Source: Candidatus Hydrogenedentota bacterium
GTDB lineage: Bacteria; Hydrogenedentota; Hydrogenedentia; Hydrogenedentales; JAEUWI01
DNA length: 64,000 nt
Assembly: GCA_016791475.1 (NCBI GenBank)
Contig: JAEUWI010000027.1
Coordinates: forward strand, 1-64,000
Reading direction: 5' to 3'
Under the pieces are notes generated by a model. It was given only the letters and a program-made list of their open reading frames with translations. It was not told where the DNA came from and searched no databases. This document shows positions 7,505-44,515 of this stretch, in pieces. The position numbers were made by a program, and so were the translations under genes. Each line of letters starts with the position of its first letter. Within the stretch, counting starts at the first letter, position 1.

Positions 7505-8827
7505 ATGTACCAGGAACTCCTGAGCAAGATAAACGACCAGACCGCGCGCATAGGGGTGATTGGTCTTGGCTATGTGGGGCTTCCCCTGATCCGCGCCTTT
7601 ATCCGGGCGGAGTTCAACGTCATTGGCTACGACGTGGACCAGAGCAAAGTGGACGCCCTGCAGGCTGGGAAAAGTTATATCAATCATATCCCTTCCGAGT
7701 GGCTTCAGGAATGGTCGAAGTCAGGCAAGTTCACGGCGACATCCGATATGTCTCGACTGGGCGAGGCGGATGTGCTCGTCATTTGCGTGCCCACGCCACT
7801 GGGGAAGAGCCGGGAGCCCGACCTGTCGTACGTGGAGTCGACAACGACCTCCATTGCCCGGACCTTACGCGCGGGCCAACTCGTGATCCTCGAAAGCACG
7901 ACCTATCCCGGCACCACCCGGGACGTCATGCTGCCGATTCTGGCAGCATGCGGGTTGAAGGTGGGCCAGGATTTCTTCCTTGCGTACAGTCCAGAGCGCG
8001 AGGATCCAGGCAATCCCGATTTCCGCGCAGATGGCATTCCCAAGCTAGTGGGCGGTCTGGACGATGCTTCGGCCGATTTGGCGGTGGCGTTGTACAGTCA
8101 GGCGATTGTGAAGATCATCCGCGTGTCTTCCTGTGAGGTCGCGGAGGCGGCAAAGATTGTGGAGAATACCTACCGCGCCGTAAACATCGCCATGGTAAAT
8201 GAGCTCAAGGTCGTGTTTAACCGCCTCGGCATCGATGTGTGGGAAGTTATTGATGCGGCGAAGACGAAGCCCTTCGGATTTCAGGCCTTCTATCCCGGGC
8301 CGGGCCTGGGCGGTCACTGTATTCCAATCGATCCGTTCTATCTCACTTGGATAGCCCGGCGGGCGGGTCTCACCACGCGCTTCATCGAACTGGCTGGTGA
8401 AATCAACACGAGTATGCCGAACTACGTGGTGAACCGCCTTGCCGATGCGCTTAACGATTGCGGCAAGCCGATCCGCGGCAGCAAGATTTGCGTACTCGGT
8501 GCGGCCTACAAAAAAGACGTGGATGATGCGCGAGAAAGCCCATCTTTCGATTTGATGAATCGTCTGATCCGAAAGGGTGCGTCGGTCACGTACAACGACC
8601 CACACATCCCGGTACTTCAAGCGACCCGTCACTGGCCTAATTTACCTGGAATGGTAAGCCAGGAGTTGACGCCGGAGTTTCTGGCCTCACAGGACTGCAT
8701 GCTGATCGTCACCGATCACAGCTTCTACGACTTCCGGTTCATTCTGGAACATTCCCAGCTTGTCGTCGATACGCGCAACGCGCTAAGAACAATACCCGAT
8801 CCCCAGGGTAAAGTGCGCAAGGCCTGA
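7505..8827 (+). CDS. UDP-N-acetylhexosamine/UDP-glucose 6-dehydrogenase family protein
   Basis: A 440-residue cytoplasmic enzyme of the nucleotide-sugar dehydrogenase family, which oxidises C6 of a UDP-sugar twice with NAD+ to give a uronic acid. The Rossmann motif GLGYVG lies at residues 20-25. The middle segment has PTPLGKSREPDLSYV and ESTTYPGTT, and the catalytic Cys272 sits in GPGLGGHCIPIDP. The last domain carries 'VLGAAYKKDVDDARESPS'. These features match the WbpA/WecC/TviB branch, acting on UDP-GlcNAc or UDP-ManNAc, better than UDP-glucose dehydrogenases. It supplies an acidic sugar for the polymer made by the following genes. AAGGA at 7489-7493 supports the start. Confidence 0.9.
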   Translation: MYQELLSKINDQTARIGVIGLGYVGLPLIRAFIRAEFNVIGYDVDQSKVDALQAGKSYINHIPSEWLQEWSKSGKFTATSDMSRLGEADVLVICVPTPLGKSREPDLSYVESTTTSIARTLRAGQLVILESTTYPGTTRDVMLPILAACGLKVGQDFFLAYSPEREDPGNPDFRADGIPKLVGGLDDASADLAVALYSQAIVKIIRVSSCEVAEAAKIVENTYRAVNIAMVNELKVVFNRLGIDVWEVIDAAKTKPFGFQAFYPGPGLGGHCIPIDPFYLTWIARRAGLTTRFIELAGEINTSMPNYVVNRLADALNDCGKPIRGSKICVLGAAYKKDVDDARESPSFDLMNRLIRKGASVTYNDPHIPVLQATRHWPNLPGMVSQELTPEFLASQDCMLIVTDHSFYDFRFILEHSQLVVDTRNALRTIPDPQGKVRKA

Positions 8828-28975: not shown

Positions 28976-29079
28976 GACACTCTAATCCGCTGTGGTGCGG
29001 GCGCGGCCGCAGCGGTACGAGAAGAGTCTTTCCGTCGTGCAGTGAGTTTGGCGTGCCCATTCTTCGTGAGGGTAGCATC

Positions 29080-32000
29080 GTGCGATTGCTCTTGGCGTTA
29101 GTGTCGTTGTGTTGCCTCGCCGCACTCATTCCATCCACGGGATGCGTTCCCATCGATCCCCCGGTGAAGGTGCCCGACATTGTCGGGCTCACGCGGGCCG
29201 AGGCGGAGGCCGAAATCATTGCCGCCGGTCTGGACATCGGCACGGTTTCCGAGGCTTTCAGCGACACGGTGGCCGCCGGCCTCATCATCTCCCAGGATCC
29301 CGCCGCGGACACCGAAGCTGTTCCCGGTTCTACGGTTTCCTTTGTGCTGTCACGAGGGCCGGAGGAGCCCGCTGGCCCCGTGCCGGCGCCGCCCACGACG
29401 CCCGTGGTCAACGCCCTTCCGGAGCTTACCGGTGAAGCTACGATTCAGATAACGGGAAACGCCCAGCCCGGTGTGCTGGTGGAGGTCAACGGCGGAGGGG
29501 GCTTTGCCACGGCTACGGCGGACAATGCAGGCGCCTATTCCGTGTCCGTCCCTCTCTATGCAAACCGGCCGAACCGACTTTTTGTCAGCGCCGTCGACGA
29601 CCTCCTTCTTCGCAGCGCGCCCGCGCCGGTGGTGGTCATTCAAGATGCTTCACCACCCGCGCTCTTCATCGATTTTCCCGAAGACGGCGCGGAGGTTTAC
29701 ACCGACTCGATTGACGTGTCGGGCCGCGCCGGCGATTTGCTCGCCGGATTCGAGGGGCTCCAGGTGCTCGTCAATGGCGCGGCTGCGGAGACCGATCCGG
29801 GTCTTGGCACCAATGGCACCTTCCTCCGCATGGCCGTACCGCTGGCCGTGGGAGAGAACGTCATCGAGGCGACGGCCACGGACGAGGCGGGCAACGTCGT
29901 GCTGGCCCAGGTGACCGTGACGAGATTACCCCTGGCCGGCCCGCGAATCACCCTTGTTTCCGGTAATGGCCAACTGGGCGGAGCCAATACCACGCTGCCC
30001 GAGCCCGTGGTGGTGGAAGTGACCGATGGCGCGAACCTTCCCATTGCCGACAGCCACCTCACCGCCCGCGTGACGCGGAGCGACGGGCAGCTCTCGCTCA
30101 GCCCCGACATCCCGAATCCCGACGGTATTCGCCTGCAGATCATGACGGACGCCCAGGGGCGGGCAACGATGTACTGGACCCTGGGCACGGACGCGGGCCG
30201 GGGCAACAACCGCCTTGAAATCGTCTCGGAAGATACGGATAACAGCGTATTCTATTGCGCATCGGCACTGCCTGGCGCGCCGACCCAGATTAACATCATG
30301 GAGGGCAACAATCAGAAGGTGGAGATAAACAGTACCGCGCCCGTGCCCCTGACCGTGTGGGTGAGCGATGGCGACAATGGGGTGGAGGGCGTCCCGGTAA
30401 CCTTTTCATTTACCAGCGCGGATGGCTATTTCAACGACACCGAAGGGCTCCAGGAGATCACCGTGATGACTTCGGCGTCGGGTCATGCCGAAGTGCGCTA
30501 CACGCTCGGCGGGGCCGACACGCACAACCTGATCACCGCCGATTTTGAAGGAAACACGACCGCCCCGGCGACCTTTGATATTCTTGGACTGGCGCGGGGC
30601 GATGGAACGCCCACCAGCTTCGCCGGGCGCGTGCTGGACAACGCGGGCGGCCCCATCGGCGGCGCGACCGTCGAGCTTTCGGTGGACAGCGATTTCGTAA
30701 GTACCCGAAGCGCGGCCGACGGCAGTTTCACTTTCACCGACCTGCCCAGCGGCCTGGCCCACCTGCGCGTGGACGGCGCCACCGCCACGACACTGAACGG
30801 CGAGCCGATTCCAGTCGGTTCTTTTCCGTCGCTCAATTATGATCCCTACATCGTGCCCGATACCGCAAACTCTCTGAGCATGCCCGTGCTGTTGCCCGCC
30901 ATCAATCCGGCCAACGCGCGCATGTACGACGGAACCCAGGATGTGGAGTTGACCGTAGAGGGACTGGAGGGTGTGAAGTTCACCATCGCCGCGGGTTCCA
31001 TGACCCTCGCGGACGGCACGCGGCCTTCACCGGAGAACCCGGTCGCCGTCTCCGTGGATCAGGTGCATTTCGACGATCTTCCCATGCCGATGCCGAACGG
31101 CGCGGCGCCCAACATGACCCTGACATTTCAGCCGCCCCGGGCAACCTACGATCCACCGGTTCGCGTTGAGTACCCGAACACCGCCGGTCTCGCGCCGGGC
31201 CAGGTCTCTTACTTTCTCAGCTTCGATCACGATCTGGGCCAGTACGCAATCGTAGCCTCGGGGGCCGTCTCGGAAGATGGCTCCACCATCGTTACCGACA
31301 AGGGGTCCGGCCTCCCGAAGGGCGGGTGGCAGGCCACGTGTCCGCCCTACACCGTTCGGGGCAAAGCCCGCGATCGATGCGGCATCGTTGCCGTGCTCAT
31401 CTTCGCCGGCGGCACCGATCTTCAGGACGACCTCTACGCGCTACTCGGGAGGGATTTCAGCGCGGGTGTGCAGCCGATCAAGTCGGGCGTGGACGCCGTG
31501 GATCCCGAAAAGGTCCGCTCTTTCATCGCCCGCGCCCAGTCCTTTGGGCCCTTGCAAGTGCAAATCGGCAGAATGTGGCTCGATCAATTGAAGCGGGATC
31601 AACCACCGGACTGTCCGGAGCCCAAGGTCGTTATCGTGGGCTACAGCCTTGGCGGGGACTCGGTCCGATTGTCCGGTGATATAGACGCGGAGCGGCGCTT
31701 TGCCTTCGATCCCATCGCGCGCTCGCTGGTCTTTCCGCCCACTTGCCTGGCCTACCAGCGCGGGGAATCCTTCCCGGCGCCCTCCAACACCGAGACCGTA
31801 CTCGCCGGCGAACTCTCCGAGGCCGCAATTGCCAACTGCATGGCGATCGGATGCAACCTGGACTTGGGGGCCTGCCTGCGCGGGTATCGGATGACCGGCG
31901 GGGCCATCAGCACCATCCCCGCCGCGGATCATGGCACCATTGTGGGGCTCGCCACGCCCCGCGTCATCACGGCGGTGCAGGAACTGGTCAACCAATTGTC

Positions 32001-35000
32001 GAAATCCGAAGCGGAGCCGAAAGGCGAGGCGCCGGTACTCCAACTCAACGAAACCTTCACGCTCATGCTCAACGGCCAGAGCTTTCAGCCCGATCAGAGC
32101 GGCTTTTTCTTCTTCGACAATGTTTCGGTTACCGACTCATTCGGCCCCGATGGCCCTGGTTCCCCGCGTGACCAGGTGGGCGATGATTTCGTCCAGATTA
32201 CCGGCTCGGGAGTGATCGGCGGAGAAACCTGGTATGTCTACAGCGATCCCTTCCAGGTGCGCAGTGGCGGCGTGGAGGTCATCGACAGCCTGATCTTCCG
32301 TCAGACTCCACCCGTGCTGCCGGTATCCATACGCGCCACTCCCGAAAGCCCGGTGCTTACCGAAGCCGGCGCGACGACCCGGATGGGGGTGATCGCAACG
32401 CTGGCCGATGGCAGCACCGTGGACGTATCCGCGCGAAATGACTTCACCACCTACCGGACGAGCAACCCCCGTATCGCGACGGTTTCGAATGAAGGCGTGG
32501 TCACCGCCGTGCGCGAAGGCACCGTATTCATCACGGCCAACAACCGGGGTGCAACTTCGGTCGCCCGCGTGTCGGTGGTCGCCGGTGACGCCCTCACCAC
32601 GGTGGTGGGCGCTGTGGAGGACAGCGGCGGCGCGCCCGTGGAAGACAGTGACATCCGCATCGTGAATCTTGCCGGGAGTGGCGAGACGGATTCGAGCGGC
32701 GCCTTCAGCATTCCGCTGGTGGCCGCGAATCAGGGCAATATCGTCACCATCGCACAGCGTCTCGGTAGCGGGCCCGCCCTGATCGCGGTCAGTCCGCCCG
32801 CGGTTCCCGTTGCGGGCGGCACGACGAATGTGGGCACGCTGGTGGCCGAAACCCTCTGTGAACGCTTTCCCGGCGATTGCGACGACATCGATCTCGACGG
32901 TGTTCGCGACGCCATCGAAGCCGCGCTGGGTCTGGCTGCGGGCGACAACGACGCCGACAACGACGGTATCCTCGATGGTGATGAAGATCTGGACGGGGAC
33001 GGCCTGTCCGTGACGGTGGAAGATGCCGTCGGCACCGACCCCGCGTCCAGCGACACGGATCAGGACGGATTGGCCGATGGCGAGGAGTTGCGGCGGGGAT
33101 CGTCGCCGATAGACCAGGACTCGGACGGAGACGGCCTGCTGGATGGAGAAGATGACGATCCCGCTGTGGCGGACGCCACACCGCCCACGGTGATTCTGAG
33201 CAGTCCCGGGGATGGAAGCGAATTGATTGAGGGCGAATCGATCACCTTGAGAGCCACTGCGGAGGACAATGGTCGCGTGGCCTCGGTGACCTTCGTCGCG
33301 CAGGGTCTAGAAGCGGGGACGGACACGGCGGTGCCCTTTGCCCTTGACTATCAGGTGCCGCTCGATATCAATCTGCTCACCTTGGAAGCCATCGCCACGG
33401 ACACGAATGAAAACACCGGGACTACGGGTCCTCTGGAGTTCACCGTCCTGCCCGATCCGGGGTCGACGGTGATCGGCCTCGTAACCGACGAGGCTGAGGT
33501 GCCCCTGGAAGGCGCGGAGGTCACTGTCGTACCCGGATTCACGGCGACGACGGGCGTCGACGGACGCTTCTCAATTGCCGGCGTTCCAACGGTATCCGGC
33601 GACTACACGGTGCGTGCACGATTCGCCCCGGAAGGTGGACGGAGTCTGAAGGGCACTTCAGCGCCGGTGGCTCCGGTGCGGGGCGGCACGACGGACGCAG
33701 GCACGATCATCGTTCGGGACGCGCCGCTCTTTGAAGGCCGCAAGTATCCCATCGCCGACATACCGACGGACGCGGCGGCGGGCGATGTGACTGGTGATGG
33801 TGCCCCGGACATCGCAGTAACAATCGGATCGAGCCTCAACCGGGTCCGGCTCTTTCGGGGCAACGGTGATGGTTCACTGCAATCCTCGGTGCTGATCGAC
33901 GAGTTTACGCTGAGACCGGAAGGCGTGGCGATGGCGCGCATTGACGACGGAGACAGTCTCGACCTTGTTGTGGCGCAGCGCGCCCCGGGGAACGCCCTAC
34001 CCGGGCAGGTGTCGGTCTACCTCAACGACGGCGTCGGCGGCTTCGGCGCGGCGATAAACTCGCCCACAACCATTGGCAATCAGGCCCCGGAATTCTCCGT
34101 GGCCGATTTGAACGGCGACACCGCACTCGATCTGATCATTGCCACCGGAACGAATTCCACCAGTAATGTGGAAGTCCTGCTGGGTGATGGGTCTGGCGCC
34201 TTTGCGGCGGGCGCGCTCTATCCCGCGGGCGTGATGGTGACGGACGTCGCCATCGGCGACTTCGACGGTGACGAGGCGCCGGACATCGCCGCCGCAGACC
34301 AGAACGGCTCGCAGGTGTACGTGTTGTTTAACAATGCCGATGGCTCCGGTACATTCCAGGACGGCGTGGTGGCAATCCCCCGTCCCGACGGTGAGGCGTT
34401 TCCAGGGGCCGTGGCGGTGGCCGACCTCAACGGCGATGGCGATTTCGACCTCGCAGCCGGCTTCGGTCAGTCCAACGTCAATTCGGCCTCCGCTGTGGTG
34501 GCCCTCGGCAATGGCGACGGTACGTTCCGCGATGCCGTTGTCTACGCTGTGTCGGAATTTGGCAGCGCGACGCCCGCCAAAGTCTCCGCAGCCGATATGA
34601 ACGGCGATGATGTCCCGGATCTGGTGGCGGCCAATCGAAACTCCTCCGAAATCACGATCTTGCCCGGTGTCGGGGATGGAAGCTTCCTCGCGCCGCTGGC
34701 GGTACCGACGGGTAATACCCCCGAGACCGCCGTGATCGCGGACATGGACAAAGACGGCGACCCCGACGTGGTCTCGGCGAACTGGAGCATGGACGTGTTC
34801 GTGCTGTTCAATGACGGCAGTGCCGGCCTCACCCCGCCGCCGCCCGCCACGAACACCGAAGGCAACGAACCGGTGTCCGTCGTGGTGGCGGACTTTGACG
34901 GCGACGCCATTGAGGACGCCGCCGTGGCCCACCGGATCAGCAATGACCTAGCCATACTCAAAGGCAATGAAAATGGGACCTTTGCCCCACCCGTCCCGAT

Positions 35001-35940
35001 TGAGGTCGGCGAGACGCCCACCAATATCTCGCTGGGCCATTTTAATGCCGATGGATTTGTGGATCTCGTGGTGCCGAGCCAGAGTGGCAATTCCATTTCT
35101 CTGCTTCTCGGCAAGGGCGATGGCACCTTCGAAACACCGGCGACCATCGACCTGACCATAGGGAACCTGCCGAGTTACGGTGCGGTGGGACGCTTCAACG
35201 GAGATGCCTTTGACGATGTCGCAGTGGCCGTGGAAACCGCGCAGAAAGTTGCGATCCTCCTGGGCAACGGGGACGGAACATTCCAGACACCCCAGGTCAT
35301 CGATACCAACCGCAGCCCCCAGTTCATTACCGCCGCAGACATCAATGCCGACACGTTCCAGGATCTGCTCGTGGGGGTAAATGATTTCCCCGGAGGCGTG
35401 GTGGTCCATATGGGCAATGGCGACGGAACCTTTGATTCGCCATCCCTGATTTTCGCGCTGGATTCCAGCCTCTACGTACAAAATATCGAGGTGGCCGACA
35501 TGGACCAGGATTCCGTCCAGGATGTCGTCATTATGACGGGTTACTCCGACCCCGTGGACTCAAAAGGCACGAGTCAATTCTTAGGTGGATTCTTTCTGCT
35601 TTACGGCCTGGACGGAGGGGGCTTTGAATCCGCCGTGTATCAGCCCGGCAACGGATCCGATCCCGGTCAGGGCAGCGCCGCCGATATTGATGGCGATGGC
35701 GTCCTCGATCTCATTTCCGCGAGCGGGACAACCCTCGACGTATCCGTGCTCCTCGGCAATGGAGACCGCACATTCCTGCCCGAGCAGCGCTACAACATGA
35801 ACCGTCCGGGCCGCTTCAACTTCGGTAGCGGCGGCGGTGCCCGCTTTCAGATCTACGACGCCAACGAAGACGGATTAAAGGACATCGTGGCCGTGTACGG
35901 ACTGGTCAGTGAAATTCAATCGCTGCTCCAACTGCCCTGA
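29080..35940 (+). CDS. Giant multidomain lipoprotein: PASTA, Ig-like, embedded alpha/beta-hydrolase, TSP3 and FG-GAP repeats
   Basis: A 2286-residue surface or periplasmic protein. The GTG at 29080 has GAGGG seven bases upstream and starts a lipoprotein signal with Cys22 (STGC); the frame also opens at GTG 29053. Domains in order: PASTA-like (about 30-96), bacterial Ig-like and Big_1-like units (about 105-510), a carboxypeptidase-regulatory-like unit (about 515-590), an alpha/beta-hydrolase-like domain (about 755-960) with nucleophile-elbow Ser856 in GYSLGG and a possible catalytic His951, a Big_2-like domain (about 1085-1170), a second regulatory-like unit, Asp-rich TSP3-type calcium repeats (about 1266-1368), another Ig-like and regulatory-like unit, and FG-GAP/VCBS repeats (about 1553-2286) forming one or two propellers. 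Adhesion, with possible lipase or esterase activity, is inferred. Confidence 0.85.
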   Translation: MRLLLALVSLCCLAALIPSTGCVPIDPPVKVPDIVGLTRAEAEAEIIAAGLDIGTVSEAFSDTVAAGLIISQDPAADTEAVPGSTVSFVLSRGPEEPAGPVPAPPTTPVVNALPELTGEATIQITGNAQPGVLVEVNGGGGFATATADNAGAYSVSVPLYANRPNRLFVSAVDDLLLRSAPAPVVVIQDASPPALFIDFPEDGAEVYTDSIDVSGRAGDLLAGFEGLQVLVNGAAAETDPGLGTNGTFLRMAVPLAVGENVIEATATDEAGNVVLAQVTVTRLPLAGPRITLVSGNGQLGGANTTLPEPVVVEVTDGANLPIADSHLTARVTRSDGQLSLSPDIPNPDGIRLQIMTDAQGRATMYWTLGTDAGRGNNRLEIVSEDTDNSVFYCASALPGAPTQINIMEGNNQKVEINSTAPVPLTVWVSDGDNGVEGVPVTFSFTSADGYFNDTEGLQEITVMTSASGHAEVRYTLGGADTHNLITADFEGNTTAPATFDILGLARGDGTPTSFAGRVLDNAGGPIGGATVELSVDSDFVSTRSAADGSFTFTDLPSGLAHLRVDGATATTLNGEPIPVGSFPSLNYDPYIVPDTANSLSMPVLLPAINPANARMYDGTQDVELTVEGLEGVKFTIAAGSMTLADGTRPSPENPVAVSVDQVHFDDLPMPMPNGAAPNMTLTFQPPRATYDPPVRVEYPNTAGLAPGQVSYFLSFDHDLGQYAIVASGAVSEDGSTIVTDKGSGLPKGGWQATCPPYTVRGKARDRCGIVAVLIFAGGTDLQDDLYALLGRDFSAGVQPIKSGVDAVDPEKVRSFIARAQSFGPLQVQIGRMWLDQLKRDQPPDCPEPKVVIVGYSLGGDSVRLSGDIDAERRFAFDPIARSLVFPPTCLAYQRGESFPAPSNTETVLAGELSEAAIANCMAIGCNLDLGACLRGYRMTGGAISTIPAADHGTIVGLATPRVITAVQELVNQLSKSEAEPKGEAPVLQLNETFTLMLNGQSFQPDQSGFFFFDNVSVTDSFGPDGPGSPRDQVGDDFVQITGSGVIGGETWYVYSDPFQVRSGGVEVIDSLIFRQTPPVLPVSIRATPESPVLTEAGATTRMGVIATLADGSTVDVSARNDFTTYRTSNPRIATVSNEGVVTAVREGTVFITANNRGATSVARVSVVAGDALTTVVGAVEDSGGAPVEDSDIRIVNLAGSGETDSSGAFSIPLVAANQGNIVTIAQRLGSGPALIAVSPPAVPVAGGTTNVGTLVAETLCERFPGDCDDIDLDGVRDAIEAALGLAAGDNDADNDGILDGDEDLDGDGLSVTVEDAVGTDPASSDTDQDGLADGEELRRGSSPIDQDSDGDGLLDGEDDDPAVADATPPTVILSSPGDGSELIEGESITLRATAEDNGRVASVTFVAQGLEAGTDTAVPFALDYQVPLDINLLTLEAIATDTNENTGTTGPLEFTVLPDPGSTVIGLVTDEAEVPLEGAEVTVVPGFTATTGVDGRFSIAGVPTVSGDYTVRARFAPEGGRSLKGTSAPVAPVRGGTTDAGTIIVRDAPLFEGRKYPIADIPTDAAAGDVTGDGAPDIAVTIGSSLNRVRLFRGNGDGSLQSSVLIDEFTLRPEGVAMARIDDGDSLDLVVAQRAPGNALPGQVSVYLNDGVGGFGAAINSPTTIGNQAPEFSVADLNGDTALDLIIATGTNSTSNVEVLLGDGSGAFAAGALYPAGVMVTDVAIGDFDGDEAPDIAAADQNGSQVYVLFNNADGSGTFQDGVVAIPRPDGEAFPGAVAVADLNGDGDFDLAAGFGQSNVNSASAVVALGNGDGTFRDAVVYAVSEFGSATPAKVSAADMNGDDVPDLVAANRNSSEITILPGVGDGSFLAPLAVPTGNTPETAVIADMDKDGDPDVVSANWSMDVFVLFNDGSAGLTPPPPATNTEGNEPVSVVVADFDGDAIEDAAVAHRISNDLAILKGNENGTFAPPVPIEVGETPTNISLGHFNADGFVDLVVPSQSGNSISLLLGKGDGTFETPATIDLTIGNLPSYGAVGRFNGDAFDDVAVAVETAQKVAILLGNGDGTFQTPQVIDTNRSPQFITAADINADTFQDLLVGVNDFPGGVVVHMGNGDGTFDSPSLIFALDSSLYVQNIEVADMDQDSVQDVVIMTGYSDPVDSKGTSQFLGGFFLLYGLDGGGFESAVYQPGNGSDPGQGSAADIDGDGVLDLISASGTTLDVSVLLGNGDRTFLPEQRYNMNRPGRFNFGSGGGARFQIYDANEDGLKDIVAVYGLVSEIQSLLQLP

Positions 35941-37897: not shown

Positions 37898-40800
37898 TTA
37901 GTCAATTGACAAGTCGGTCCCACGCATCTTACTTGCCTCTACTTCGCAAATTGCTATCAGCTCCTTCGTTCTCTCCGCCATTTCGACTGCACGCGGGCCG
38001 TAATCCTCGAAATCGCGCAAAGCAGCCTTGGCATAGATCAAAGATTCCGAAAATCTTCCGGCACTACCAAAGTCTAGCGCAATGTTGAATCGAGCCGATG
38101 CAGTATCGAATTGGACTCCACGTAATTCTTCATAGCGGAGACACTTGAGATGGTGCTCCAGAGCCATGTTGAATTGGCCAGCGCGTCTATAAAGGTTTCC
38201 GAGCTGTCCGTGGGTGAGTCCAAACATGTTGATGTCGTCACTAGGTATCGTTCGTAGTACTTGTTCGTAATAGCCTAGTGCCTTCTCAAAGTGCTCGACT
38301 AGTTCCGCTTCTGGACGGCTTGAGAGAAGGCCCTCTTCAAAACGACTCGAGGAAACTTTTCCCAATTCTGCCATGCATCTGGCCTTCCCCAATAGATCCT
38401 GGCTATGATGCATGGCGAGACTTGCTAGGTAATATTTTTCGGCACTGTTCAAGTCCTTCAGAGATGAAACTTCTGTGTAGGCGCGCCCCAGATTGTATGC
38501 GATGATTGCGGCGCTAGGTGCATCTCCAATTAGCTTTGATAGTCTCATTCCCTCATCGTAGAACTCGATACACTGGGACTTACCTTGAGCACGTTGTGTG
38601 TGGCCAGCCTGTTGCAGCGCTACGGAGAGAGAGCGAATGAGATGTCGGTCATTGTTGTTAAGCTTCTTTTGCTTTTTCGAAAGAGAGTTCTTCGCGCGAT
38701 CTCTCGTCCAATTGATCCAAAGCACCTCCAGCCGCTCCGCCTCCATCCAATCTCTTGATTCCTCAGCCAGCGAGATTCTATACCCAGCGACAAATAACCA
38801 TTCGGCATCTCTTCCGGGCAACGGCCCGCCGGTATTGGAATCTATAAAATATTGGGTGATCTCCCCGACCAAATACCTCCATTTTTTCGATTGTCCAGTG
38901 TACTGACAAAGAGTCCACAGACCCTGCATAGTGCCCACGAGTGGACTCCACCACTCATTCGCACGTGCGAGCTCTCGTGCATGAAGGAAATTGGCCTCCT
39001 CGGCGGCAAGAAGTTCAAGTACTATTCGATTGCCATTTCCGAACTGGTTGTGATAAGAATGGCCCATTGTTCCTATCGCCATCGTGAAAGATCTCTTGGT
39101 GGCTAACGGATCAGAATATTGCGAATTGTATAGAGGCTTTAAGTACCACGGGAATGCAGGATGAATTGAGTATCTGCCATTCCCCAAGGGGGCGAGCACA
39201 CCACAATTGGCAACACGATCTAGAAGTTCCTTGCAGTATTCTTCCGTTACCCCTTTTATTGAGTCTATACAAAATGCAGAGTCGACACGGCCCATGTCCA
39301 CAAGTACTCTAACAAAAACGCAACCTTGGAATATGTGAAGTAAAGCGATTTGCTTTCTCTCTAAGTCCGTAAACGAGTACCTGAAACTGTAGTCAAGCGA
39401 ACGGCCAAGCGACGTTGAGAGGCCCTCGAACTCCTCATCTGTGAAATCGGCTTCGCCCGCACGAAGTTGCGCAACTAACAATTCAATATCTGATCTCTGC
39501 ACTAAATTGTCGGCCAAGACCTGATTCACCAGAACAGTGATTGTAAGAGGATTTCCATCCGAAAAATCGAGAAGTGGTCGCCAGTCGTTAACATCGGCGA
39601 TCTGGTGTCCTCGTCTCTCTGACAACGCTTTGGTAAGTTGAATTCGCTCCCTCATCGGCATCTTGGGGAGGGCAATGCGTTGCGGCAGGTTACCCAGGAG
39701 CAACCATTCCTTCCGGCGCGATGTGAGTAGAAGCTTTACAGATGTTTCATTCGCCTCCCGTAGAAAATCGGCAATCTCCTTCCGCTCATTTAAGGTCCAG
39801 GGCGTGTCGGATTCATCAGGAAATCCAGTAATAGGCTGGATGTTGTCCCAAATCCATAGAATCGGGACTCGTTCAAGAAATCGAAGAACAATTCGGCTCA
39901 TGTCTCGAACGTCGCTAACCGCGTCCCAATTGACCTTGCTTTTCTCCAATTCCGTCCGAAATACCTCGCCAAAATGGTCCAACACACTACGCAGTGTAAT
40001 ATGGGTATCAAAGGAGCTGAACAAAACTCTCCCCGCTTTAATGCCACCGGTTCTGGAATACCATCGGGCGAATTCAGCGGCTACGGCAGTCTTTCCGCTT
40101 CCCACGTACGCGTGAAGTAACACGATGGATTCCGTGTCAAATGCACGATCAAGGGCCAAGAGAGTCTCATCACGCCCGAGAAACCCCGCATCAGGCGGAT
40201 TGGGTAGTTGGGGATCGAAACATGCAGTTGCATCTAAGTCGTTTGAAACATGCAAGTCCGTGTCAGCACCATTCGATTTCGGGAGCATGTAAACTGGAAC
40301 CCGCTCATAAACGATCGGGACGGACCAATCCTGCAGAGGGGTGGGTGAGAATGCGATAGCGCGCATCGGATCTGAATGCAGCTTTCCTCTTCCACGAGAC
40401 ACCGCTTCACCCAGCCCAGAGCCCTGTATAAGGGCACTATAGAGGTCAGTCATAAAGTGAGCTGCAGTTACAACGTAGACGTTATAGCGCATGGCTACGA
40501 CACCAGTGACTCCTTGATCCACTGCCTCCTGCGCAAGTGAGCCGAAGGCAAGTACGCTTCCCTGTGTGTCGCTCCCGTCGCCAACGGAGTCGTTAGGTAA
40601 CTCCCTTGGTTGCGCGTGCGCTGATCTGCATGCGTTCAGGACTAGAATCGAAACATTTGAATCCGCCAATAGTCGACCAAGAGACGTTCCGTCTATCAAT
40701 TCCCTATTATCCAACCGCTCTGGTTTCTCAAAGCATATGTAACCTCGCGCGCGGTGGGGTAGTCCGCACGCATCGGCGGGATGCATACCAGCGGACTGCT

Positions 40801-41533
40801 CTGAGTCATCCAAGAAAATTCCGTGCCCATCGAAATGAACAATGCGATAGGGAAAGCCGTTCTGCTTGGCCTGTCGTACCGTAAGTTCGAGCTGACGAAA
40901 CGTAGGAGGACGTAGCACGTCGAACTGTAAACGCGGAGAGTAACTCTCTCCGAGCCCCTTCATAATTTGAATGGCGACCGAACGGAAGGGGACATCGTTC
41001 TCGCGTTTCGGACGGCAAATGACAAGTAAGACGCGAAATCGTTCATCTCTAGCTTCCGCTCCCGTATCCTGCGTGCCAGCAATAGATTCTGGGCGGGAGC
41101 GAACGAACGCTAAGGCTGTCAGCGCGACGTACTCGCCTCTCTTCGGGTCACGAATGAGTTCCCAAGGAATCGACATTGCCTCTTCATCTGATTCAACAAT
41201 TTGGACGCGCGTGGCATTGATTGTGTTCTGAACCTCCATCCAGAGTTCGCGCGAAAAATCATCGAATCCAAAAATTGCATTGAATAACATTTCGCCGATA
41301 GCTTCTATACGTGCTTCAATGCGCTCTGCTACTCTGGGAGCGGGATCCTGTGGATATTCAAGAAACTCCTCAAGATACCATCGAATATCCTCGCGATCCT
41401 GAGTAGTCAACGCGAAGTTGAACCGGGATGTGACCTCACGTTTTGCTGCGCCATCTACTTCAAACTCGATCTCCACCAGTCTCCCAGGACTGGCTTCATT
41501 CCCCTTGAAATGCGTTATTCTTAGCGATTGCAC
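37898..41533 (-). CDS. CHAT caspase-like protease fused to STAND/NB-ARC-type NTPase and TPR repeats
   Basis: A 1211-residue protein with bacterial NLR-like architecture. Residues about 60-420 form a CHAT domain of the caspase clan: catalytic His237 in 'IVHFDGHG' and Cys302 in 'ILVLNACRSA', with 'GSLAQEAVDQGVTGVVAMRYNV' near the end. A STAND ATPase follows: FLGRDE at its start, Walker A GSGKT with Lys481, Walker B 'PILWIWD' with Asp563, 'LLLTSRRK' sensor region and 'DFSDGNPLTITVLVNQ'. The C-terminal third is helical, with TPR units about 1010-1190. Family knowledge: STAND domains oligomerise after sensing a trigger and switch on a fused effector. A defence or cell-death role is inference. The GTG at 41533 has a G-rich ribosome binding site seven bases upstream; ATG 41593 is the alternative. 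The gene is AT-richer than its neighbours and stands alone. Confidence 0.85.
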   Translation of the reverse strand: MQSLRITHFKGNEASPGRLVEIEFEVDGAAKREVTSRFNFALTTQDREDIRWYLEEFLEYPQDPAPRVAERIEARIEAIGEMLFNAIFGFDDFSRELWMEVQNTINATRVQIVESDEEAMSIPWELIRDPKRGEYVALTALAFVRSRPESIAGTQDTGAEARDERFRVLLVICRPKRENDVPFRSVAIQIMKGLGESYSPRLQFDVLRPPTFRQLELTVRQAKQNGFPYRIVHFDGHGIFLDDSEQSAGMHPADACGLPHRARGYICFEKPERLDNRELIDGTSLGRLLADSNVSILVLNACRSAHAQPRELPNDSVGDGSDTQGSVLAFGSLAQEAVDQGVTGVVAMRYNVYVVTAAHFMTDLYSALIQGSGLGEAVSRGRGKLHSDPMRAIAFSPTPLQDWSVPIVYERVPVYMLPKSNGADTDLHVSNDLDATACFDPQLPNPPDAGFLGRDETLLALDRAFDTESIVLLHAYVGSGKTAVAAEFARWYSRTGGIKAGRVLFSSFDTHITLRSVLDHFGEVFRTELEKSKVNWDAVSDVRDMSRIVLRFLERVPILWIWDNIQPITGFPDESDTPWTLNERKEIADFLREANETSVKLLLTSRRKEWLLLGNLPQRIALPKMPMRERIQLTKALSERRGHQIADVNDWRPLLDFSDGNPLTITVLVNQVLADNLVQRSDIELLVAQLRAGEADFTDEEFEGLSTSLGRSLDYSFRYSFTDLERKQIALLHIFQGCVFVRVLVDMGRVDSAFCIDSIKGVTEEYCKELLDRVANCGVLAPLGNGRYSIHPAFPWYLKPLYNSQYSDPLATKRSFTMAIGTMGHSYHNQFGNGNRIVLELLAAEEANFLHARELARANEWWSPLVGTMQGLWTLCQYTGQSKKWRYLVGEITQYFIDSNTGGPLPGRDAEWLFVAGYRISLAEESRDWMEAERLEVLWINWTRDRAKNSLSKKQKKLNNNDRHLIRSLSVALQQAGHTQRAQGKSQCIEFYDEGMRLSKLIGDAPSAAIIAYNLGRAYTEVSSLKDLNSAEKYYLASLAMHHSQDLLGKARCMAELGKVSSSRFEEGLLSSRPEAELVEHFEKALGYYEQVLRTIPSDDINMFGLTHGQLGNLYRRAGQFNMALEHHLKCLRYEELRGVQFDTASARFNIALDFGSAGRFSESLIYAKAALRDFEDYGPRAVEMAERTKELIAICEVEASKMRGTDLSID

Positions 41534-41968
41534 TGGGAATCCCCCCACTCGAGGTTGAGTACAATGTCCAAAACCATTTACCGATGTCAGCATCGCATGC
41601 TATCACATCCGCTCATGGTGGCTGCTCCGAAGCTGGCATCTATTTCACCCGAATATCCATGTCGCCATTCCATTCGGTAATGCAGACTGAAACGACTAAG
41701 CACGGTAAAAATCGATCTACGACGAAGCTGCGAACGAGAAGCGCGTCGGTGGGGTCGTGGATGCTGTGGACGCAAATCGCAGGAATTCATATGCGATGAC
41801 TTTGAAAACGACTATGGTATCGCTGCTGATCGAGTGCGCCCCGTTCGCAGCGCAGGCCGCGCACGGTACCGCATTCGCCCCAATTACGAGCCAATCCTTT
41901 TACGTCAATTGTTCATCGCAGACGATGGACAAGCACCAGCCCAAGCTTTGATTCATGGATCGGCGCGG
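41534..41968. other. Gene-poor gap beside the CHAT/STAND gene
   Basis: This gap separates the start of the CHAT/STAND gene from the stop of the next minus-strand gene. Composition changes from AT-richer to GC-richer towards 41850. No convincing ORF, hairpin or promoter was found. Short fragments in two plus-strand frames (about 41720-41800 and 41805-41950) look coding-like and could be decayed gene remains, but I cannot name them. Confidence 0.4.
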
Positions 41969-42937: not shown

Positions 42938-44515
42938 ATGTCCTTCCGATCCCTCACCGTGCTTGCGGCCCTGATTCTGGCGGGCCTTTCCGTCCAGGGC
43001 GAGTCCCGTCCCAACATCGTGGTCATCCTGGCGGATGATCTCGGCTTTTCCGATCTGGGTTGCTACGGCAGCGAAATCGCCACGCCGCGCCTGGATTCTC
43101 TGGCGCAGGGCGGGCTGCGCTTCACCCAGTTCTATAACACAGCCAAATGCCATTCCTCCCGCGTGTCCCTGATGACGGGGCTCTACTGCGATCAGGCCGG
43201 GGCGGAGTCCCTGAGCCGGGGCGCGACGATGGCGGAAGTGCTACAGGCGGCGGGCTACGCCACGGGCATGGTGGGGAAGTGGCACCTGGACAAGCAGCCG
43301 ACGGATTTCGGCTTTCAGCGTTACTGGGGGCACCTCTCCGGCGCGACGGACTATTTCGCGGGCGACAAGACCTTTCGGCTCAATGGGGAAGTGTGGCCCG
43401 TGCCCGAGACCGTGAAGGGACGGCCCTTCTACACGACCCACGCGGTGGCGGACTTTGCGAATGACTTTGTGGACGAGATGGCGGCGGACGGCAAGCCCTT
43501 TTTCCTTTATGCCGCGTTCAACGCGCCCCACTATCCGCTTCAGGCCCCCGAGGATAAGGTGAAAGCCCAGGACGGGCGCTACGATGCGGGCTGGGATGTC
43601 CTGCGCGTGAAGCGGCACGAGCGCCAGGTAGCCTCGGGCCTCCTTCCCGCGAAGTTGGCGCTGAGCCCGCGCCCGGATCATATCCCGGCGTGGGACTCAT
43701 TGAGCGACGCTGATCGCCAGTGGGAGGCGGACCGCATGGAGGTCTTCGCGGCGATGGTGGGCGAACTGGACGCGAGCGTGGGCCGGATCGTGGACCATCT
43801 CCAGGAGAAGGGGCTGCTGGAGAACACGCTGATCCTCTTCATGGCGGACAATGGCGCATGCCCCTTCGAGCGGACCACGGGGCGCTTCATGAAGCCGTGG
43901 GAGCCGGGATCACACTGGACCTACGACGCGAGCTGGGCGCACCTGGGCAACACGCCTTTCCGGCTCTACAAGCAGAACCAGCACGAAGGCGGCATTGCGT
44001 CCCCCCTCATCGCCCACTGGCCCGCAGGTCTGAAGATGGCGCCGGGCGGCACGACGGATCAGCCGGGCCACCTGATCGATGTGATGGCGACCGTGTTGGA
44101 ATTGGGTGGCGCGAACTACCCGACGCAAGTTGGGACACGCATCATCGACCCGCTTCAGGGCCAATCCCTCGCGCCCATCTTTCGCGGCGAGACACGCACG
44201 CCCCACGAGGCGCTCTATTTCCACTTCGGCAACGACCGCGCCCTGCGCATGGGGCCGTGGAAACTGGTGTCGGCGAAACTGGGCAAGTGGGAACTCTACA
44301 ACCTCGATGAGGACCGAACGGAACTGCACGATCTCGCGGCGGAGGAACCGGAGCGGGTGGAATCTATGAAGGCGGCCTGGTTTAAGACGGCGAGAGAGGT
44401 GGACCGACTAAATGACGACAAACTCAAACCCGCCGGAGATACAATCACCCCGCTGATGTTCCGAAAGGACACCAGCTCGGGCGCGGCGGAAAAAGGTGGC
44501 GGCGGCGCGGAGTAG
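42938..44515 (+). CDS. Secreted sulfatase (arylsulfatase family)
   Basis: A 525-residue periplasmic or secreted enzyme that hydrolyses sulfate esters. A signal peptide (residues 1-22) precedes 'RPNIVVILADDLGFSDLGCYG', where the Asp pair binds calcium. The formylglycine site reads CHSSR (residues 69-73), with Ser where most enzymes have Pro. 'GMVGKWHLD' supplies the conserved Lys and His, 'FFLYAAFNAPHYPLQAP' and 'ILFMADNG' the remaining metal and sulfate ligands. The C-terminal subdomain is complete ('WELYNLDEDRTELHDLA'). AAGGAG at 42923-42928 supports the start. Substrate is unknown but probably a sulfated polysaccharide. Confidence 0.9.
   Translation: MSFRSLTVLAALILAGLSVQGESRPNIVVILADDLGFSDLGCYGSEIATPRLDSLAQGGLRFTQFYNTAKCHSSRVSLMTGLYCDQAGAESLSRGATMAEVLQAAGYATGMVGKWHLDKQPTDFGFQRYWGHLSGATDYFAGDKTFRLNGEVWPVPETVKGRPFYTTHAVADFANDFVDEMAADGKPFFLYAAFNAPHYPLQAPEDKVKAQDGRYDAGWDVLRVKRHERQVASGLLPAKLALSPRPDHIPAWDSLSDADRQWEADRMEVFAAMVGELDASVGRIVDHLQEKGLLENTLILFMADNGACPFERTTGRFMKPWEPGSHWTYDASWAHLGNTPFRLYKQNQHEGGIASPLIAHWPAGLKMAPGGTTDQPGHLIDVMATVLELGGANYPTQVGTRIIDPLQGQSLAPIFRGETRTPHEALYFHFGNDRALRMGPWKLVSAKLGKWELYNLDEDRTELHDLAAEEPERVESMKAAWFKTAREVDRLNDDKLKPAGDTITPLMFRKDTSSGAAEKGGGGAE

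Follow-up and report, generated by a model that had tools for sequence, protein, structure and literature searches.

Why would a giant adhesin-like protein of an uncultured bacterium carry a lipase-like domain in its interior? The question is raised by a gene of Candidatus Hydrogenedentota bacterium on contig JAEUWI010000027.1, of which we analysed positions 1-64,000 (64,000 nt; hereafter the window). The open reading frame at 29053-35940 (+) encodes 2295 amino acids counted from GTG 29053, and residue numbers of this protein (P0001) follow that count. GTG 29080 is the likelier start because GAGGG lies just upstream; it was used in an initial annotation of the locus, whose residue numbers are 9 lower. 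By sequence and structural modelling, an insert within the protein is a predicted alpha/beta-hydrolase domain with a Ser-Asp-His triad in canonical order, and comparison with related proteins indicates that it occupies a cassette site, lying between two conserved modules, that is elsewhere filled with a phospholipase A2 (PLA2) or other domains. The balance of the evidence leans modestly towards a surface-displayed lipolytic exoenzyme, for which we infer catalysis, a lipid substrate, surface location and a nutritional role.

The initial annotation had proposed an internal lipase-like alpha/beta-hydrolase with a nucleophile elbow, GYSLGG, at Ser856 and a possible catalytic His951 (Ser865 and His960 in our numbering). 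GYSLGG at Ser865 is the sole GxSxG of the whole protein, and His960 is the only His within segment 751-985. The GxSxG motif by itself is worthless as evidence, because it is expected by chance in most shuffles (2.1 per shuffled copy, present in 87% of shuffles). A hydrophobic strand followed by G[HYW]S[LMQ]GG occurred in 1e-4 of shuffles (1 of 10,000). Among six homologous hydrolase domains sharing 31-76% identity, Ser865, Asp886 and His960 are invariant and canonically ordered, with no invariant Ser other than Ser865.

Five homologous sequences served as input for an AlphaFold2 model of the insert, in which positions 115, 136 and 210 correspond to Ser865, Asp886 and His960. The model reached a predicted local distance difference test score of 76.6 and a predicted template modelling score (pTM) of 0.79. 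Its elements follow the order strand-Ser-helix-strand-Asp ... strand-His-helix, with Ser115 held between a strand (108-114) and a helix (116-123) and the His placed after the last strand. When the model was compared with the PDB using Foldseek, 56 matches were obtained at E <= 0.001, with alpha/beta-hydrolases as the leaders. The best match was Bacillus subtilis lipase A (E 4e-5, probability 1.00); further lipases came next, along with feruloyl esterases and carboxylesterases. The structure prediction that the initial annotation had suggested as a check, together with the fold search, recovered an alpha/beta-hydrolase core, and the domain, elbow and His that it had put forward are all upheld. 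Judged from sequence and model, elbow, fold and conservation together are beyond chance, and Asp886 is the probable catalytic acid of a Ser865-Asp886-His960 triad. The domain resembles lipase A (PDB 1isp/3qmm) in its small core, Ser elbow and late His. However, identity is only ~14%, lipase A is a stand-alone secreted enzyme, and in the window domain the probable acid comes after the first strand beyond the nucleophile helix.

The hydrolase is embedded in a long modular protein. A signal- or lipid-anchor-like N-terminus is followed by PASTA, Ig/Big modules, CarboxypepD_reg and a conserved module that we call GW; the 220-residue insert (777-996) comes next, and then a conserved post-module, Big_2, an Asp-rich stretch, Big_7 and FG-GAP repeats. 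Pfam recognised PASTA, Glucodextran_B-like Ig, Big_1, Big_2, Big_7, CarboxypepD_reg and 13 FG-GAP_3 stretches, so that the Ig-like and FG-GAP modules previously claimed around the hydrolase are present, as is, by reading of the sequence, the TSP3-like stretch. The features are as follows.

29080..29145 (+): signal peptide and probable lipid anchor, read from the sequence, with the Cys of LIPSTGC at its end; the strict PROSITE pattern PS51257 fails, with Pro at -4
29164..29352 (+): PASTA domain (P0001 38-100), PF03793, E 2.7e-17
29404..29937 (+): Ig-like modules (Big_6 / Glucodextran_B-like), Pfam
29938..30597 (+): two Big_1-like modules, PF02369, E 1e-6, 29.1 bits, below the cut-off of 34.9
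30613..31380 (+): CarboxypepD_reg (TTR-like) and conserved GW module ending GSGLPKGGWxxxCPPY; PF13620 in 11/11 members, alignment, model pTM 0.63
31381..32040 (+): payload, predicted alpha/beta-hydrolase domain (P0001 777-996); borders from blastp against paralogues with other payloads, fold from AlphaFold2 and Foldseek
31645..31647 (+): Ser865 (856 in the initial annotation), nucleophile elbow GYSLGG; invariant, model strand 108-114 before and helix 116-123 after
31708..31710 (+): Asp886, probable catalytic acid (FAFDPI), right after the next strand; invariant, preceded by model strand 131-135
31930..31932 (+): His960 (951 in the initial annotation), probable catalytic His; invariant, after the last strand 201-205, at the start of helix 210-230
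32041..32307 (+): conserved post-payload module (NETFTLMLNGQ...FGPDGPG...YVYSDPFQV); paralogue homology restarts at P0001 ~997
32329..32538 (+): Big_2 domain, PF02368
32875..33162 (+): Asp-rich TSP3-like stretch, sequence reading; not itself matched by any profile
33184..33357 (+): Big_7 Ig domain, PF17957, E 1.3e-12
33466..33624 (+): second CarboxypepD_reg domain, PF13620, best stretch 1472-1524
33733..35937 (+): FG-GAP repeats, probably beta-propellers; PF13517, 13 stretches, E 2e-55

Homologues of the hydrolase were found as a second copy in the same genome (35% identity), as two copies in a genome of the same family (75% and 32%), in another Hydrogenedentota genome (43%) and on a contig filed as Akkermansia muciniphila (31-33%). 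The latter (L026; genome G068, CAMAUY010000136.1) belongs to a 5.9 Mb genome with several giant surface-type proteins, and the species name on the record is probably wrong. A scan of the genome collection confirmed 4 relatives among 131 pattern matches, all with the same frame; the scan used two short patterns, by which diverged stand-alone relatives may be missed. Searches of plasmids, phages and viral contigs for the hydrolase returned nothing. Between the window protein and its orthologue on JACPGE010000053.1 the payload is 73% identical, and its ratio of nonsynonymous to synonymous change (pN/pS) is 0.24, as compared with 0.42 for Ig, 0.39 for Big_1, 0.38 for FG-GAP, 0.25 for Big_2 and 0.19 for the post-module; these ratios are relative only, because synonymous divergence is near saturation. 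On this comparison the payload is among the best-kept parts of the protein, apparently under stronger purifying selection than Ig, Big_1 and FG-GAP, with Big_2 about equal and the post-module tighter. The best match of the insert to a curated family was Pfam Cutinase (PF01083), at 16.1-16.4 bits (E ~0.01) and below the gathering cut-off of 25.9. A PDB sequence search with the single domain gave no match, and with profiles it gave weak matches only. The weak sequence matches are mostly esterases and lipases, including cutinase and acetyl xylan esterase.

The frame surrounding the hydrolase occurs 11 times in 5 of 68 Hydrogenedentota genomes (a set that was identical in the order-, class- and phylum-level searches). 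PF13620 CarboxypepD_reg is present in 11/11 members, and CarboxypepD_reg together with the GW module is common to the relatives whatever domain follows. The domain search also found five giant proteins that match only the first 22-38 columns of the hydrolase query. Their N-terminal frame corresponds to that of the window protein up to P0001 ~776 (~41-47% identity), and by blastp downstream homology restarts at P0001 ~997 in three of the five (G000:C1, G001:C8 and G003:C68, G000 being the genome of the window); the other two (G003:C428 and G005:C103) gave no downstream blastp match to the window protein. Three of the giants carry a group-XII-type PLA2 in the slot, namely G000:C1 (L022), G001:C8 (L020) and G005:C103 (L021). 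All score above the PF06951 cut-off of 34 bits (42.3, 41.2 and 35.2 bits; E 2.2e-10, 1e-10 and 1.6e-8, respectively) and show the active-site pattern CDxHDxCYxTC. The PLA2 domain of L022 lies at ~7530-8000, and in L021 the frame stops right after the payload. G003:C68 has a helical-looking domain in the slot, whereas G003:C428 holds other material and a C-terminal metalloprotease-like motif, HEVGHxxxxxH, with weak Pfam matches. In a more divergent paralogue from the window's own genome, G000:C28 (L032), the GW module is followed by a helical-looking domain.

The PLA2 proteins are therefore sisters of the window protein in their N-terminal frame, GW module and, where the open reading frame continues, post-module, but differ in carrying PLA2 rather than an alpha/beta-hydrolase. 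Tails co-vary with payload: FG-GAP-type repeats occur in 5/5 Hydrogenedentota hydrolase proteins and LPxL repeats in 2/2 complete PLA2 proteins, which end in these and not in FG-GAP. The LPxL-type repeats (SLPALxxI ...) of the C-terminal halves of L022 and L020 and of L032 are long, degenerate and solenoid-like. In trees of the flanks neither the hydrolase nor the PLA2 proteins form a clade, which suggests but does not prove repeated swapping of payloads: forcing one clade each was not rejected by the approximately unbiased test (p 0.24 and 0.126; when the post-module was included, 0.227 and 0.312). What appears to be new here, on sequence comparison, is a hydrolase family that no curated model covers and that, within the searches made, occurs in this slot alone, along with the slot borders and the PLA2 alternative. 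The initial annotation had regarded an internal esterase in an adhesin-like protein as a rarity. This view does not hold: an unusual one-off fusion is rejected because paralogues with the same frame carry other domains in the slot, including PLA2 at Pfam level, and Zhang et al. 2012 (PMC3482391) had already mentioned large surface proteins of bacteria that combine a lipase with adhesion modules.

In another phylum, the same GW module precedes RHS-type domains (L051, L063, L067 and L068), helical-looking domains or Ig-like repeats, and more distant relatives of the module occur in Rhizobium Ig-like and Streptomyces RHS-annotated plasmid proteins. One frame copy (L066; G189:C1:1382838-1383350) has in-frame stops (1 TGA, 1 TAA) and is a decayed gene. 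The TTR-like part of the window protein gave a very weak Teneurin TTR profile match (E 0.14), and the GW module model a weak Teneurin-4 fold match (E 0.011). It is possible, although we hold this only tentatively, that the frame serves generally as a plug-in system for display, in which conserved flanks would take up uncurated lipase, PLA2 or helical domains by recombination, with the GW module also standing before RHS in another phylum, so that surface enzymes are swapped while the binding rod is kept. A self-cleaving ZU5 module before the slot was considered but is not supported: the GW module has no Pfam ZU5 match, its model gave only a weak fold match to ankyrin ZU5A-ZU5B (E 0.028, TM-score 0.31), and the CxH thiol autopeptidase motif is absent from the module in 12/12 proteins, that of the window having no Cys. 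The large bacterial ZU5-type surface proteins with adhesion modules and a lipase or glycohydrolase (Zhang et al. 2012, PMC3482391) similarly join a long adhesive frame to one enzyme; for the window protein, by contrast, a ZU5 identity of the module is not supported by these profile, fold and CxH results, and the enzyme slot varies among close paralogues.

We hypothesize that the protein would be exported by Sec and probably lipid-anchored in the outer membrane, with an active serine esterase or lipase held mid-rod between Ig-like modules and FG-GAP repeats. The Ig-like and FG-GAP modules would attach to some surface or particle; at the contact site the hydrolase would cut acyl-ester bonds, most likely of lipid or phospholipid, and the cell would use the products. 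The adhesin label of the initial annotation and its idea that fatty acids might be freed where the protein makes contact are likewise suppositions from sequence. A lipid substrate is proposed because the slot holds two enzyme folds, unrelated to each other, that both suggest acyl-ester cutting, one of them being PLA2; this is the best evidence available for it. The fold, the invariant Ser, Asp and His, the selection on the payload and the conservation of the flanks where the payload differs also count in favour of the proposed exoenzyme, and Hydrogenedentes are described as lipolytic glycerol degraders in a passage of PMC6121073 citing Nobu et al. 2015. Regarding the anchor, the initial annotation's term lipoprotein stands in part. 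The hydrophobic N-terminal stretch ends in LIPSTGC, and the PROSITE lipobox is passed by 5/12 compared proteins (four relatives with the same N-terminal frame and the divergent C28 paralogue), but the window protein's own lipobox (PSTGC) fails the strict pattern. From its sequence the window protein is likely lipid-anchored. An excerpt of PMC6121073 on related Abyssubacteria genomes reports lolCDE and Sec present and a complete specialised secretion system absent, which is in keeping with this route.

Several observations weigh against a surface lipolytic exoenzyme. In addition to the lipobox failure, the Foldseek TM-scores are modest (0.44/0.55) and residues 1-23 of the model, as well as some of its loops, have low confidence. 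No NCBIfam lipase family scored above its curated cut-off for the window's domain, nor did the hydrolase significantly match any curated lipase family searched. Cutinase and acetyl xylan esterase are among the best weak matches, and therefore the ester may be non-lipid. No gene neighbour in the window recurs next to the homologues, and the neighbourhood gives no hint on product use.

The chief rival is a toxin-like role, in which lipase, PLA2, protease or RHS payloads delivered by the same frame would damage the membranes of neighbouring cells in the manner of polymorphic toxins. It holds this rank because the GW module also fronts RHS proteins, the Streptomyces plasmid protein among them, and because polymorphic toxin systems are known to use PLA2 and lipase-like alpha/beta-hydrolases as toxin domains (PMC3482391). 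The Tox-ABhydrolase domains of these systems, likened here by description and not by sequence, are likewise variable payloads. The window payload, however, lies inside the protein, where a conserved sequence follows it, rather than at a C-terminal tip, and the CxH result leaves no releasing peptidase. No operon or immunity partner is indicated, since without a shared neighbour there is no candidate immunity gene, although this comparison would miss a non-conserved one. We regard antagonism as rather unlikely. Alternatively, the Ig/FG-GAP modules might hold polysaccharides from which the domain strips acyl groups such as acetyl or feruloyl. The Cutinase and acetyl xylan esterase matches, the feruloyl esterases found by Foldseek and a sulfatase gene ~7 kb downstream of the hydrolase gene (42938-44515) are consistent with such a carbohydrate or other non-lipid esterase, which we nevertheless judge improbable, since the top fold matches are lipases and the alternative enzyme of the slot is a PLA2, which is not glycan-active. 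Enzyme-like domains of adhesive proteins can also be dead, and the hydrolase fold could be retained for structure or binding; this is very doubtful given that Ser, Asp and His are kept in 6 diverged copies, with Ser865 and His960 unique as described.

Elsewhere in the window, positions 37898-41593 (-) encode a 1231-aa CHAT + AAA ATPase + TPR protein, possibly a regulated protease or defence-type gene. No RNA families were found in the window.

Uncultured Hydrogenedentota are thought to draw part of their living from lipids, and the surface lipolytic reading, if true, would account for how they could keep lipolytic enzymes at their surface. The same frame with lipase, PLA2 or neither would constitute a natural experiment, and a lipase-like family absent from the curated libraries searched would be added, with precise domain borders.
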